Source: Flavobacteriales bacterium
GTDB lineage: Bacteria > Bacteroidota > Bacteroidia > CAIKAF01
Direction: 5' to 3'
Length of the DNA stretch: 37,844 nucleotides
Assembly: GCA_026936045.1 (NCBI GenBank)
Contig: JAIXKU010000206.1
Coordinates: 1-37,844 of the forward strand
The notes under the pieces were generated by a model, which was not told the origin of the DNA, searched no databases, and worked only from the letters and a program-made list of their open reading frames with translations. A program made the translations under genes and the position numbers. Below are positions 16,409 through 37,066 of the stretch, one piece after another; the stretch's first letter is position 1, and the number at the start of each line of letters is the position of its first letter.

Positions 16409-16774
16409 ATGATCCGACACTTGCTTATTTATGTCCTTTTCAACCTATGCATCTCGTGTAATAAGCCTCCGTATATAGGTGAATGGATTGCGCAAACAGA
16501 TTCCGCATCTGTACATCTGACATTACAAGCTCATGCATATAGTCTCACTAAAACCTATGCGCAACGTCATTACCTAGAAAAGGGAAAGGTAATGGTACGC
16601 CAAGATTCTATTTGGTTTGTGCCGGTCTATTTTTGGGAAGAGCGATATGAGCGCTGGCTACTCCTAACAAAGCCTAAAGCTAGAGGATACAGATTCTTAA
16701 TTGACGATGAACGCTTAACTTGGATGGAGCGTACAGATACTCTTTTTTGGAAAAAGAAGGAAAATTTGAAATAA
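16409..16774 (+). CDS. Small lipoprotein of unknown function
   Basis: A 121-residue protein with a short lipoprotein signal (MIRHLLIYVLFNLCISC, Cys17). The mature part is basic and aromatic (YIGEWIAQTDSASVHLTLQA ... VYFWEERYERWLLLTKPK). It may fold as a small beta domain of the lipocalin-like type seen in many Bacteroidetes lipoproteins, but I do not recognise it. It is isolated between the terminator at 16332-16375 and the yceD promoter, whose -33 element lies inside its last codons. TAAGTTTA at 16396-16403, within a GCTAA/TTAGC repeat, may be a weak promoter box. Confidence 0.65.
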   Translation: MIRHLLIYVLFNLCISCNKPPYIGEWIAQTDSASVHLTLQAHAYSLTKTYAQRHYLEKGKVMVRQDSIWFVPVYFWEERYERWLLLTKPKARGYRFLIDDERLTWMERTDTLFWKKKENLK

Positions 16775-16795
16775 TTGAAAAAATCACTATTTTTG
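16765..16795 (+). promoter_or_regulatory. Promoter of the yceD-rpmF unit
   Basis: TTTG (16765-16768), 19 bases, TATTTTTG (16788-16795): a full match to the Bacteroidetes TTTG/TAnnTTTG consensus, 17 bases before the GTG start of yceD. The -33 element overlaps the end of the preceding gene. Confidence 0.8.
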
Positions 16796-16812
16796 CAACC
16801 CGTTTTTAAACC

Positions 16813-17340
16813 GTGAAAAAGCTGTTGGAATATATCATTCCTTTTGAAGGATTAAAAAATGGACTCCATCGGTTTGATTTTAATATCACCGATACGTTCT
16901 TTGAGGATTATGGAACAACCATTGATTTTCATCATACAGACCTACAGGTCGTCGTTAATCTGATGAAAAGTGAAACGATGCTGGTGTTTGATTTTTCAAT
17001 CAAAGGCCATGTCGTTTTTCCTTGTGATAGATGCTTGGACGAATATGTGCAGCCAATTAATACAGAGCAAAAACTCATTGTTAAGTTTGGCGAAGAGGAT
17101 GAAGGTGATAAAGACACGGTGATTACCTTATCTCATGCTGAGCATGAAATCCATTTAGCCTATTTTCTCAATGATTACATCCTGTTGGCATTACCGATGA
17201 AACGTATATGTGCCAACCAAATACCGGCTAAAGCATGTAACGAGGCAATGATACAACGAATTGAAGCGATGCAGGCTGTTCCAAAATCTGATAATGAATC
17301 CGATCCCCGGTGGGAAGGATTAAAAAAGTTGAAAGAATAA
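16813..17340 (+). CDS. yceD: YceD/DUF177 family protein
   Basis: A 175-residue protein starting at GTG 16813, with no better ATG in frame near the promoter. It has the YceD hallmarks: a central CDRCLDEY segment (in bacterial members the CxxC helps define the family), an acidic middle (KFGEEDEGDKDT) and a C-terminal DPRWEGLKKLKE. YceD is nearly always encoded just before rpmF. In plants and some bacteria its homologues affect 23S rRNA accumulation, so a ribosome-assembly role is likely but not proven. The stop is 18 bases before the rpmF start, so the genes are co-transcribed from the promoter at 16765-16795. Confidence 0.93.
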   Translation: MKKLLEYIIPFEGLKNGLHRFDFNITDTFFEDYGTTIDFHHTDLQVVVNLMKSETMLVFDFSIKGHVVFPCDRCLDEYVQPINTEQKLIVKFGEEDEGDKDTVITLSHAEHEIHLAYFLNDYILLALPMKRICANQIPAKACNEAMIQRIEAMQAVPKSDNESDPRWEGLKKLKE

Positions 17341-17358
17341 TATAATTTAATAAATAAA

Positions 17359-17528
17359 ATGGCACATCCCAAGCGAAAATCTCAAAACACGCCGTGATAC
17401 ACGCCGTACAAAAGTTACTGTGCCCACGTTATCAAATTGCTCCACTACAGCACGGTACAATCAGCGTCATCGTGCGTATTATGGATGGCAACTTGTACTA
17501 TAAAGGTAAAGTTGAAGCCAAAGCCTAA
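17359..17528 (+). pseudogene. rpmF: Ribosomal protein L32 gene, reading frame broken
   Basis: ATG 17359 opens with MAHPKRK, the standard L32 N-terminus, but this frame stops at 17395-17397. The next conserved part (TRRDTRRTKVTVPTLSNC ... RHRAYY) is in a second frame through about 17479, and the C-terminus (MDGNLYYKGKVEAKA, TAA 17526-17528) is in a third. Adding one A to each of the four-A runs at 17376-17379 and 17384-17387 restores the usual KISKTRRD. Two bases missing near 17477-17483 would restore HRAYYMDG. The gene position (yceD-rpmF-plsX-fabH) is canonical. Sequencing or assembly error, true decay with another copy elsewhere, and recoding are all possible; error is the simplest. Confidence 0.85.
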
Positions 17529-17615
17529 TCATTCCAATTGAATTTTCTTTTACCGGGTGGTCAAGGAACAGACCTTTATATAATGTTGATTTTGTTAATT
17601 TACAAAAATAACAAA

Positions 17616-17648
17616 TTTGATATGAAAATGGTTATATTGATACCTTTG
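17616..17648 (+). promoter_or_regulatory. Promoter of plsX-fabH
   Basis: TTTG (17616-17619), 21 bases, TACCTTTG (17641-17648): full consensus elements, 22 bases before the plsX ATG. plsX-fabH can therefore be transcribed independently of yceD-rpmF. Confidence 0.78.
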
Positions 17649-17670
17649 ATTTTTCTCAGCACAGCAATGT

Positions 17671-18633
17671 ATGACAAATAACACAATACGAATAGGTCTT
17701 GACGTCATGGGAGGCGATTATGCTCCTGATGCAACCATAAAAGGCTGTCTGATGGCAGAACAAGCATGGGGCAACAAAATATGCATAGTGCTGATTGGTG
17801 ACGAAAAAATAATCAGAGAAAAGATACGAGAGGAAGGAGGAGATCCCTCTGCTTTTGATATCATTCATGCACAGGATAAGATGTCCATGTCAGCCAGCCC
17901 GGTTAAAAGCTTTGCCGAGAAACCACAGTCTTCTATTGCTATCGGATTTGACATGCTTAAATCAGGTGCTATTGATGGCTTTACCTCGGCCGGTAATTCA
18001 GGTGCTATGCTTGCCGGCTCTTATCTTAAAATAGGACTTATTCGCGAAGACCTTCGTCCCTGCTTGGTGACGATGCTTCCCAATTTGAATGGTCAGGATG
18101 GAATATTGTTGGATGCAGGAGCTAATGCCGACTGCAAGCCGGAGAATTTGCTGGATTTTGCTATCTTAGGCTCAACATACGCACAAGCTGTTTTAAAAAT
18201 GGAGAAACCACGCGTTGGGCTTATCAATATTGGCGAAGAGCCTGAAAAAGGAAATCAACTTAGCTTGGCAGCTCATAAACTGATGGCAACTTATCCTAAT
18301 ATCCATTTTATCGGGAATTTGGAAGGCCGCGATTTATTTGATGGCAAGGCGGATGTAGCTGTTTGTAGCGGTTTTGTGGGAAATGTGATTCTTAAGCTAT
18401 CGGAAAAATTTTATGAATTAGCGATTAAAAGGGGCGGAGCCGACGACCCGTTTTACTCAAGAATGAATTACGAGACCTATGGCGGCTCACCCATTCTTGG
18501 TGTGACTAAACCTGTTGTAGTAGGACATGGCATCAGCTCTCCTTTGGCTATTAAGAATATGATTGGCCTTTTGTCTGATATGGTGAAGAGTAGAGTATCT
18601 GAAAAAATAAAAGAATCGGTTCAGCATGTCTAA
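17671..18633 (+). CDS. plsX: Phosphate acyltransferase PlsX
   Basis: A 320-residue soluble enzyme that makes acyl-phosphate from acyl-ACP for the PlsY step of phospholipid synthesis. Family blocks are [18 protein letters not shown] at the N-terminus, [15 protein letters not shown], a glycine-rich [30 protein letters not shown] and [11 protein letters not shown] followed by [15 protein letters not shown]. Full length for the family. It has its own promoter at 17616-17648 and overlaps fabH by eight bases, the usual pairing of phospholipid and fatty-acid initiation genes. Confidence 0.97.
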
Positions 18634-19624
18634 ACTGAGAGCAGCCATTACAGGGATTCAGGGTTATATTCCCGATTACGTCCTTACAAATAAAGAATTG
18701 GAAGGGATGGTAGATACTACTGATGAATGGATTGTATCGCGCACAGGTATTCGTGAAAGACGTATTCTCAAAGGGAAAGATGCGGGTACGTCCATTATGG
18801 GCATTGAGGCTGTCAAAAAGCTTTTAGAAAAGAAACAGATTCATCCATCGGAAATTGATTTGTTAATCTGTGCGACGGTTACGCCGGATATGGTTTTTCC
18901 TGCTACAGCCAATTTAATCACAGATGCCATTGGCGCGGTCAATGCATTTAGCTATGACCTGAATGCGGCTTGCAGCGGATTTATTTATGCGTTATCTACT
19001 GGCGCGGCCTTTATTGAGTCGGGGAAATATAAAAAAGTCATCGTGGTTGGCGCCGATAAAATGTCATCTATCATTGATTATACCGATCGCGCTACGTGTA
19101 TTATATTTGGTGATGGTGCGGGCGCTGTTTTGTTGGAGCCGACGTATGAAGAAGAGGGTGTTATGGATTATATTTTACACAGCGATGGTTCGGGTGCGCA
19201 ATATCTTCATCAAAAAGCTGGTGGATCGAGACGACCGCCAACCCATCAAACGGTTGATGCACATGATCATTATGTGTATCAAGAGGGGCAAGCGGTTTTT
19301 AAATTTGCTGTCAAAAATATGGCCGATGTATCGGCTGAAATTATGGAACGTAATCATTTATCATCGGATGATGTTGCCTTTTTAGTACCACACCAGGCCA
19401 ATAAACGTATTATAGATGCAACAGCACATCGTATAGGCCTGGCCGATGATAAGGTGATGTTGAACATAGATCGTTATGGCAATACCACATCCGGTACTAT
19501 TCCGCTTTGCTTATGGGAATATGAGTCAAAGCTCAAAAAAGGAGATAACCTTATTATAAGTGCATTTGGTGGAGGCTTTACCTGGGGTGCCATCTATGTA
19601 AAATGGGCCTATGACCCGTCATAA
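18626..19624 (+). CDS. fabH: Beta-ketoacyl-ACP synthase III
   Basis: A 332-residue condensing enzyme that starts fatty-acid chains from an acyl-CoA primer and malonyl-ACP. The catalytic triad is intact: Cys116 in DLNAACSGF, His256 in VPHQANKRI and Asn286 in DRYGNTTSG. The N-terminal [16 protein letters not shown] and C-terminal [17 protein letters not shown] are typical. The primer preference (acetyl versus branched) cannot be read. It is translationally coupled to plsX by an eight-base overlap. No accB/accC genes follow, and I see no clear terminator in the 156 bases before the convergent rpe gene. Confidence 0.97.
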
Positions 19625-19780
19625 TCATTCTCAACTTCTTTAGACATATAGGACATGTTCTGTTTTGTGTCAGGGATGACAGCAGCATTCTTTTCGGCAA
19701 AAGATACAGCAAACAGACCGGTGCACCGATGCAACGCGAGGGATAGGCGCCCATATAAACAGGATAGTGATAGAGGAAAA

Positions 19781-20479: not shown

Positions 20480-21343
20480 TTATCCTAAATAGGGTTTTAG
20501 TAAATGACTGCGTTGACCCTGTTTCAAACGCCGGATTGCTTTTTCTTTAATCTGACGAACGCGCTCACGCGTAAGATCAAATTTAGCGCCTATCTCTTCC
20601 AGCGTTAGCGCTGTTTTGCCATTTAGTCCATAAAAATGGCGCAGTACATCTGCTTCACGTGGGGTGAGTGTGGCTAAGGAACGTTCTATTTCTTTACTGA
20701 GAGATTCTGAAACTAATTGTCTGTCGGGACTGGGACTTTCGTGGCTGCGCAGCACATCATACATGTCGGTATCCTCACCTTCTTGTAGCGGCGCATCCAT
20801 GGATACATATCGTCCATTTGATATTAATGACTCGATTACTTCCTGCTCGCTGATATCTAGTATGGTTGCTATTTCTTCGGACGATGGCTCTCGTTCAAAC
20901 TTTTGTTCCAGCTCAGAAAAAGTACGGTTTATTTTGCTTATGGAGCCAATCTTGTTGAGTGGCAAGCGCACGATGCGCGAATGTTCGGCTAGGGCTTGCA
21001 GTATAGACTGACGAATCCACCAAACAGCATAGGATATAAATTTAAAACCGCGTGTTTCATCAAATCGTTGTGCTGCTTTTATCAGACCAAGATTGCCTTC
21101 ATTGATAAGGTCGGGGAGTGTGAGGCCTTGATTTTGGTATTGTTTGGCAACAGACACAACAAAACGTAAGTTGGCTTTAACCAGTTTTTCCATCGCATTG
21201 ATGTCGCCTTCCTTTATCTTTTTGGCCAAATCAACTTCCTCGTCGGCATTAATTAAATCAACACGCCCAATCTCTTGAAGGTATTTATCCAAAGAGGCCG
21301 TGTCGCGATTGGTTACCTGTTTTCCGATTTTAAGCTGTCTCAT
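20480..21343 (-). CDS. RpoD-like sigma-70 factor, second paralogue
   Basis: A 287-residue group 1/2 sigma factor without region 1.1, as usual in Bacteroidetes. It has region 1.2 ([20 protein letters not shown]), region 2 with the core-binding and -10-recognition segment ([36 protein letters not shown]), region 3 and the region 4.2 helix-turn-helix ([21 protein letters not shown]). A full paralogue at 36203-37066 has the same length. This copy differs most in regions 3 and 4.1 ([20 protein letters not shown]). I see no consensus TAnnTTTG promoter before it, unlike the other copy. It could be an alternative group 2 factor; which copy is primary is inferred. Confidence 0.92.
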
Positions 21344-24732: not shown

Positions 24733-25818
24733 ATGATGGAAATAGAGACAGCGCTAATATTTGAAAAAAATGCTATACCGCAAGGTACTGTGGCATGGCA
24801 AAGTCCATCGAATATCGCATTGGTTAAATACTGGGGAAAGAAAGAGCATCAAATACCATGTAATGCATCGGTCAGCTTTACGCTTGATAAGTCAGTTTCA
24901 AAAACCACAGTGCATTACACACCCTCTGATTCGCAAGCTTTTCAATTGGCTTTTTATTTGGATGGCGAAAGAAACGAAAAGTTTGAGAAAAAAATTAGCA
25001 TGTTTTTTCAGTCAATACTTCATCTTCAGCCTTTTCTGAATCAATTATCGTTTACCATACATTCCAGCAATACATTTCCACATTCAGCCGGTATCGCTTC
25101 ATCTGCGTCGGGCATGAGTGCATTGGCACTTTGTCTTTGTCAGATAGAACAGAATCATTTTCAAACGCTGACCAATACAGATACATTTCTCCGCAAAGCC
25201 TCTACTTTAGCCCGTTTGGGATCGGGTAGCGCTTGTCGTTCTGTGTATGGCGGATTGGTTGTTTGGGGGGAGACATCAGCATGCCCTCAGTCTGCCAACA
25301 AATATGCTGTACCGTTAACAGAAAATGTACATCCGGTGTTTCATGACTATTGTGATACCATTCTTATCATTGACGCCGGTCAGAAGAGTGTTTCCAGCCG
25401 TGCCGGTCATGAATTGATGCATACCAATCCATTTGCGGTATCCCGGTTCAGGCAAGCTTCAGAGAATATGGAAATTTTGCTTAAGGCGATATCGGGAGGT
25501 GATTTGGATACGTTTATACGTATTACCGAAAGTGAAGCGCTTACTTTACATGCCATGATGATGACCAGCGAACCGAGTTATATGCTTATGCGTCCGAATA
25601 CTATTCAGGTGATAGAACGCATAAGAGCGTTTCGTTCAGAAACAGGCATTCCCGTTTGCTTTACCTTAGATGCCGGGCCAAACGTGCATACGCTTTATCC
25701 GGCAATTCATAAAAAAGAGGTTTTATCGTTCATTAAAAATGAATTAATCATATATTTGTATAATAGCTTAATGATTGAAGACGGTACAGGTAATGGTCCC
25801 AAAAACTTAGACGTATGA
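24733..25818 (+). CDS. mvaD: Diphosphomevalonate decarboxylase
   Basis: The protein has about 361 residues from ATG 24733 (24736 is equally possible). I do not use ATG 24706 because a -7 promoter box lies between it and 24733. The enzyme converts mevalonate 5-diphosphate to isopentenyl diphosphate using ATP. Family marks are SPSNIALVKYWGKKEHQIPC, NASVSFTLDKSVS, the GHMP ATP-loop FPHSAGIASSASGMSAL, ARLGSGSACRSVYGGLVVW and FTLDAGPNVHTLYP. It overlaps the next gene by four bases (ATGA, 25815-25818), which couples it to the mevalonate kinase gene. Confidence 0.94.
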   Translation: MMEIETALIFEKNAIPQGTVAWQSPSNIALVKYWGKKEHQIPCNASVSFTLDKSVSKTTVHYTPSDSQAFQLAFYLDGERNEKFEKKISMFFQSILHLQPFLNQLSFTIHSSNTFPHSAGIASSASGMSALALCLCQIEQNHFQTLTNTDTFLRKASTLARLGSGSACRSVYGGLVVWGETSACPQSANKYAVPLTENVHPVFHDYCDTILIIDAGQKSVSSRAGHELMHTNPFAVSRFRQASENMEILLKAISGGDLDTFIRITESEALTLHAMMMTSEPSYMLMRPNTIQVIERIRAFRSETGIPVCFTLDAGPNVHTLYPAIHKKEVLSFIKNELIIYLYNSLMIEDGTGNGPKNLDV

Positions 25819-26772
25819 GAAGTACAAGATCCTTTAAAAAGTTTAGCTCTAAAATCTTACTCTTCGGAGAGTATAGCATCATTCATAACTCTATGGGATT
25901 AAGTATTCCCTACGAGGCTTTTGAGGGGAAGTTTACGTTCTCTCCCGATAAGCTCAATGTAGAAGAAGCAACAGCTTCCAATCAGAGTTTACAGGCATTT
26001 GCGACATATCTACGTCAGTTGATGGACGATAATAAATTGCTGTTTACCTGTGATATTGACCAGATGGAAGAGGATATACTGTCAAGGGATTGTTTTTGAC
26101 AGTAGTATTCCTCAAGGTTATGGCGTGGGTAGTTCTGGTGCTTTGGTTGCTGCCGTTTATGACCGTTATGGATTGGATAAAATTACGTACGATCCGACAC
26201 TTTCAGGCAAACTGATTATCCGTCTTAAAGATATTTTTGCGCAGATGGAGAGTTATTTTCATGGTAAAAGTTCTGGCATGGATCCGTTGATTTGTTATAT
26301 GAATCATCCGATGCTTATTCAAAGTAAGGATGCCATAGATCCGGTTGGTATGCCGCCGGCCAGTCAGACCGGAAAAGGCGCTATTTTCCTTATTAATACA
26401 GGTGAGGTAGGAGAGACTCAGCCTTTGGTTAATCTATTTTTGGATAAATGCAAAGAGGAAGGTTTTACTCACGTGATTAAGAATGAGTTAATCCCTTTTA
26501 ATAATAATTGTATCAAGGCTTTCCTAAAAGGAGAAGCCAAAGATTTATTTTCCAATCTTAAAGCCTTATCCGGCTTCTTGTTGAGCAATTTGGCACCTAT
26601 GATACCAAGACGCTACAGAAAGATTTGGCAAAAGGGGCTTGAAACAGAAGCCTATTATCTCAAATTATGTGGCTCCGGCGGTGGCGGTTATATTTTGGGT
26701 TTTACAGAAGATTTAGAGAAAGCGCATAAGGAGCTGAAAGACCATGATATACAGGTGATTCATTGCTTCTGA
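25815..26772 (+). pseudogene. Mevalonate kinase-like GHMP kinase, frameshifted
   Basis: The first frame (25815-26099) encodes the N-terminus, with FSSKILLFGEYSIIHNSMGL, and stops at 26097-26099. The rest, in the next frame, begins near 26082 with GIVFDSSIPQGYGVGSSGAL (GHMP ATP-loop). It continues through QMESYFHGKSSGMDPLICY to the C-terminal GSGGGGYILGF, ending at 26772. Homology is continuous across 26079-26090 (CTGTCAAGGG). Removing one base there or adding two rejoins the frames to about 318 residues, normal for Bacteroidetes mevalonate kinase. Everything else looks intact, so a sequencing error or a recent mutation is likelier than old decay. It is coupled to mvaD by ATGA. Phosphorylation of mevalonate is the family role. 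Confidence 0.85.
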
Positions 26773-36202: not shown

Positions 36203-37066
36203 TTATCCTAAATAGGTGCGAAGCAATTTGCTTTTAGAACTTTGACGTAACCGCTTAAGTGCTTTTTCTTTAATCTGGCGTACGCGTTCACGAGTCAAAT
36301 CAAATTTCTCGCCAATTTCATCTATGGTTAATCCATGATTCATGCCGATACCGAAGTATAACTTGATGATTTCTTTCTCGCGTTCGTTCAGTGTATCAAG
36401 TGTGCGTTCAATTTCCGTTTGCAACGATTCTTTTATTAAAGAACGGTCGGCGCGTGGCGAATCTTTATTCACCATCACATCATATAATGTGCTCTCCTCG
36501 CCGGAAACCAATGGCGCATCCATCGAGATATGACGGCCGGATATAGAGATCGAGTCTTTGATTTTATCTTCAGGCAAGTCGAGTATTGTTGCTAATTCTT
36601 CTTCTGTCGGTTCGCGTTCAAATTCCTGTTCCAGTTTAGAGAAAGCCTTATTCAGCTTATTGAGAGAGCCAACCTGGTTAAGCGGAAGGCGTACAATACG
36701 AGAGTGCTCGGCAATAGCCTGAAGAATAGATTGACGAATCCACCAAACAGCGTACGAAATAAATTTAAAACCACGTGTTTCGTCAAAGCGTTGAGCCGCT
36801 TTGATTAATCCCAGATTCCCTTCGTTAATCAAGTCAGGAAGTGTTAAGCCTTGGTTTTGATATTGCTTGGAAACAGATACAACGAAACGCAAGTTTGCTC
36901 TGGTTAATTTTTCAAGAGCGGCCTGGTCTCCTTGTTTGATTTTACGAGCGAGTTCAACCTCTTCTTCGGCTGTTATCAACTCTTCTTTTCCTATTTCCTG
37001 TAAGTATTTATCAAGAGAACGGCTTTCGCGGTTCGTGATGGATTTTGTAATCTTAAGTTGCCTCAT
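36203..37066 (-). CDS. rpoD: Primary sigma-70 factor RpoD (sigma A)
   Basis: A 287-residue sigma factor that directs RNA polymerase to the TAnnTTTG promoters seen throughout the window. It lacks region 1.1, as is normal in the phylum. It has region 1.2 ([20 protein letters not shown]), region 2 ([36 protein letters not shown]), region 3 ([20 protein letters not shown]) and region 4.2 ([20 protein letters not shown]). Compared with the paralogue at 20480-21343, regions 1.2 and 3 look more like the family norm, and it has a full consensus promoter, so I take this one as the housekeeping factor; that ranking is inferred. Confidence 0.93.

Follow-up and report, generated by a model that had tools for sequence, protein, structure and literature searches.

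The rpmF gene, for ribosomal protein L32, is broken across three reading frames in the window analysed here, a whole contig of 37,844 nt (contig 13) from a Flavobacteriales draft genome, and the break is probably a local sequence error, or at the very most a gene loss of very recent date, not a new mode of reading a gene. The initial annotation had left three options: that the sequence is wrong here, that the organism uses another L32 copy, or that it recodes. The first is now the best supported and likely holds, in view of the density of indels, the lack of any nonsynonymous excess and the finding of only one other frame change in 90 other genes.

The rpmF locus and its relatives

The source draft amounts to 2.79 Mb in 341 contigs, many of them only 3-5 kb, and is 96.7% complete and 3.2% contaminated. 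Linkage of yceD, rpmF and plsX/fab genes is widely conserved (PMC5049393). The window has this arrangement, its rpmF locus (17359-17528) being adjoined upstream by an intact yceD and downstream by an intact plsX-fabH, and Pfam and tblastn bear out the original description of a core gene broken within an otherwise intact cluster. The features of the locus, including comparisons with the genome of a close relative (G003), are:

16813-17340, plus strand: yceD (DUF177), intact upstream neighbour (Pfam PF02620, 72 bits; one frame, 66% identity to G003)
17359-17379, plus strand: rpmF piece 1, frame 1, MAHPKRK (translation, tblastn, alignment)
17387-17482, plus strand: rpmF piece 2, frame 2, TRRDTRRT...RHRAYY (translation, tblastn)
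17484-17528, plus strand: rpmF piece 3, frame 3, DGNLYYKGK-VEAKA and stop codon TAA (translation, tblastn)
17671-18633, plus strand: plsX, intact downstream neighbour (Pfam PF02504, 279 bits; 77% identity to G003)
17671-19624: plsX-fabH, intact

The translations place the three recognisable L32 pieces in frames 1, 2 and 3, as first reported, and tblastn with the G003 L32 recovers them as collinear segments at 17359-17391 (frame 1), 17384-17482 (frame 2) and 17481-17525 (frame 3), with E = 2e-12. The L32 of a second same-genus genome, G001, likewise matches in three collinear pieces (E = 8e-11), and the G003 protein searched against the whole genome finds the middle piece at E = 2.2e-10; with such values the three-frame match is not due to chance. 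Synteny of yceD and plsX with both G003 and G001 accompanies the match, and homology and position together identify the site beyond doubt as the rpmF locus by descent. No sign of a contig mis-join was found, a single alignment to G003 spanning 16736 to 19641.

A functional bL32 (PF01783) is expected to occupy a single open frame of about 55-65 codons. Here frame 1 reaches a TGA at 17395-17397, after 12 codons, the middle frame runs 49 codons without a stop, and the Pfam score of 17.9 bits falls below the cut-off of 21.3. With the bL32 type in which CSTTGTVH replaces a full zinc ribbon, that of G003 for instance, the gene shares the yceD-rpmF-plsX-fabH locus, the MAHPKRK start and the RRDTRRT, PTLSNCSTT, QRHRAY, DGNLYYKGK and VEAKA segments; it differs in lying over three frames, in lacking residue pairs HY and LV, and in its low score, against 65-71 bits for the intact single-frame L32 of all three congeners.

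An L32 over the cut-off was found in 57 relatives, always in an open frame (57/57), and the breaks are shared by none of the relatives. A search across the order gave L32 over the cut-off in 13 of 15 genomes, namely, in open frame, the three congeners (3/3) and 10 of 11 other family members, the exceptions being the source genome and the eleventh family member, G006. Both G006 (L038) and G045 (L044) score without L32 and also lack any plsX match though rated 97-98% complete, the rpmF-plsX locus being either missing from these drafts or changed. Their weak L32 matches are unrelated sequence, and with plsX missing too they were rejected as parallel losses of L32. Use of another L32 copy is not supported: neither the Pfam model nor the G003 protein found one in the source draft, itself incomplete (96.7%), and a weak match, C99, holds no L32-like protein. 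The only hit of a contig scan was a distant relative (YceD 33% identity), and no further genome of the species came up.

Lesions relative to the congeners

Lesions were called against three same-genus genomes with intact L32, by DNA alignment and by frame-aware alignment. The latter requires a minimum of four indels, and the count rises to as many as seven, within about 135 bases (17376-17511):

17379-17388, plus strand: lesion 1, net loss of 2 bases, as one 2-base or two 1-base losses (DNA and frame-aware alignments)
17410-17411, plus strand: lesion 2, in-frame loss of 6 bases, for residues HY of the RRTHYKA motif (alignments, DNA and frame-aware among them)
17450-17461, plus strand: probable compensating -1/+1 pair, turning the family GTVH into ARYN (by eye from the DNA sequences)
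17477-17483, plus strand: lesion 3, loss of 2 bases in the Val codon before DGNLYY (DNA and frame-aware alignments)
about 17510-17511, plus strand: lesion 4, in-frame loss of 6 bases, for residues LV of GKLVVEAK (alignments, DNA and frame-aware among them)

The initial annotation had proposed that one A was lost from each of two four-A runs and that two bases were missing near 17477-17483. The latter are confirmed as the 2-base loss of lesion 3. The first A run is A5 in the relatives, in agreement with the proposal; the second is A4 in the relatives, as in the window (DNA alignment), and so does not fix the site of the other loss. The second base lost in lesion 1 may instead come from the third position of a Ser codon, or a single 2-base loss may account for the two. 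The probable -1/+1 pair at 17450-17461 gives the best fit at the DNA level, while the coarser frame-aware alignment does not require it.

It had also been thought that undoing three shifts restores the family spacing. It does not, since the 6-base losses of HY and LV remain against every same-genus L32; the belief arose because only the frame-changing lesions had been listed. In 37 of 38 L32 readings (one genome or more entering twice) the RRTHYKA-type motif has its His, which is missing from the window together with the following Tyr. The damaged stretch also shows two changes to Val, at codons 22 and 24 (G003 numbering).

Selection and the local indel rate

With each piece read in its own frame, comparison of the surviving codons with G003 counts 25 synonymous and 5 nonsynonymous differences (pS 0.64, pN 0.041), a pN comparable to those of intact ribosomal proteins on the same contig (0.042-0.059), and neutrality is rejected (P = 1.5e-11). 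The gene is therefore not an aged pseudogene; full selection acted on it until very recently, or does so still. Neutral decay that leaves four to seven indels is expected to bring many more substitutions than indels. No in-frame indels relative to G003 were found over 1,547 codons of yceD, plsX, fabH, rpsC, rplV, rplP and rplD.

A survey of frame changes drew on about 352 kb of the source draft (G000), about an eighth of it. Among 91 genes (83.6 kb compared) only two are frame-changed, rpmF and a GHMP kinase gene, with 0 of 89 in the reverse comparison. At the background rate set by the one other frame-changed gene, three frame changes within 170 b have a chance of about 1e-9, or about 2e-7 at the upper bound. 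The damage is therefore local and does not reflect a genome-wide error rate, and genome-wide indel error is ruled out as the sole cause.

The GHMP kinase (mevalonate-kinase-like; 25815-26763, plus strand), which follows immediately on diphosphomevalonate decarboxylase, carries an additional base near 26079-26082 when compared with G003 and lies in two frames; with this +1 frameshift it is the second broken conserved gene of the contig. The contig also carries two rpoD-like sigma-70 family genes of 287 aa each (20480-21343 and 36203-37066, both minus strand), with 87% and 68% identity to one and the same G003 sigma protein.

Explanations of the break

The likely explanation is that the draft contains a local consensus or assembly error: indels are dense while substitutions are not in excess, and they strike a core gene in a fragmented assembly. 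The frameshift in a second conserved gene of the contig, that for the GHMP kinase, also favours this reading. The organism would then have, like its congeners, a normal rpmF in one frame, and 17376-17511, with its mostly small deletions, could for example be a badly supported or gap-filled patch; we infer both that the breaks are absent from the DNA of the cell and that their cause is technical. Sequencing errors in homopolymers have been reported to contribute heavily to mistaken pseudogene annotations (PMC2916853), and the gene resembles the false pseudogenes that sequencing and assembly indels produce in drafts: the indels are small, relatives are intact, amino acid changes are not in excess and the draft is fragmented. 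It departs from them in that the damage is confined to one short stretch instead of being spread over the genome, and a clear homopolymer case is seen solely at the first A run. Counting against error, most lesions are not simple homopolymer errors, two changes to Val lie in the same stretch, and the contig is otherwise almost free of damage, so that a specific local cause must be assumed. The two exact in-frame 6-base losses are odd for sequencing error, being atypical of any single error mode, and they keep alive the main rival, a real and very recent inactivation of rpmF.

That rival, ranked next after local error, is doubtful but carries some weight. The cell would either lack L32 or encode it in the few percent of the genome that are not assembled. 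Taken at face value the sequence has no L32, no second one having been found, and the lost HY and the change to Val look like relaxed constraint. One proposed minimal translation set omits rpmF, and many ribosomal proteins can be deleted singly in Escherichia coli and Bacillus subtilis (PMC9035817). However, a dense TraDIS library contained no transposon insertion in E. coli rpmF (PMC5821084), so that losing this gene probably has a cost, and all congeners keep L32; G006 and G045 score without it but also without plsX, the whole locus being missing from those drafts or changed. The codon test does not independently prove error, since a loss too fresh to have gathered substitutions would pass it as well. 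What strains the recent-loss reading is the number of separate indels: four to seven, with almost no nonsynonymous substitutions, do not make a pattern of step-by-step decay. That a bacterium with a 2.8 Mb draft very recently lost functional L32 without replacement, its codons still looking selected, is improbable.

Recoding, by two ribosomal shifts at the A runs and one near 17480 or by RNA polymerase slippage, to yield one L32, is very hard to credit. A single -1 slip is mechanically conceivable, since the first A4 run lets Lys tRNA re-pair one base back, and frameshift correction by slippage is documented elsewhere (reviewed in PMC5009743), in genes that, like this one, are broken by small indels, here with one at an A run. 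Unlike those genes, this one has very short runs (only 4 long), several lesions and no conservation: relatives have one intact frame and share none of the breaks. Several efficient shifts would be needed within 57 codons of an abundant protein, and no shift could supply the missing HY, LV or GTVH segment. No stimulatory downstream structure was detected, the RNA of 17359-17460 folding no better than shuffles (z = 0.36). The suggestion of recoding thus finds no support. Least credible of all is that one frame encodes a new short product and L32 has been repurposed: the middle frame is indeed open for its 49 codons, but the codons that survive in each piece keep the conservation of L32 in that piece's frame, and no new start or family was seen. 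The two papers found to mention rpmF, L32, frameshift and pseudogene together are on other topics, judged by title and abstract.

The case is mainly a caution against taking a broken core gene in a fragmented draft, before a check of the reads, as ribosomal protein loss or recoding. Should the break prove real, it would represent a fresh, natural case of L32 loss, through which to learn how dispensable the protein is outside laboratory strains.
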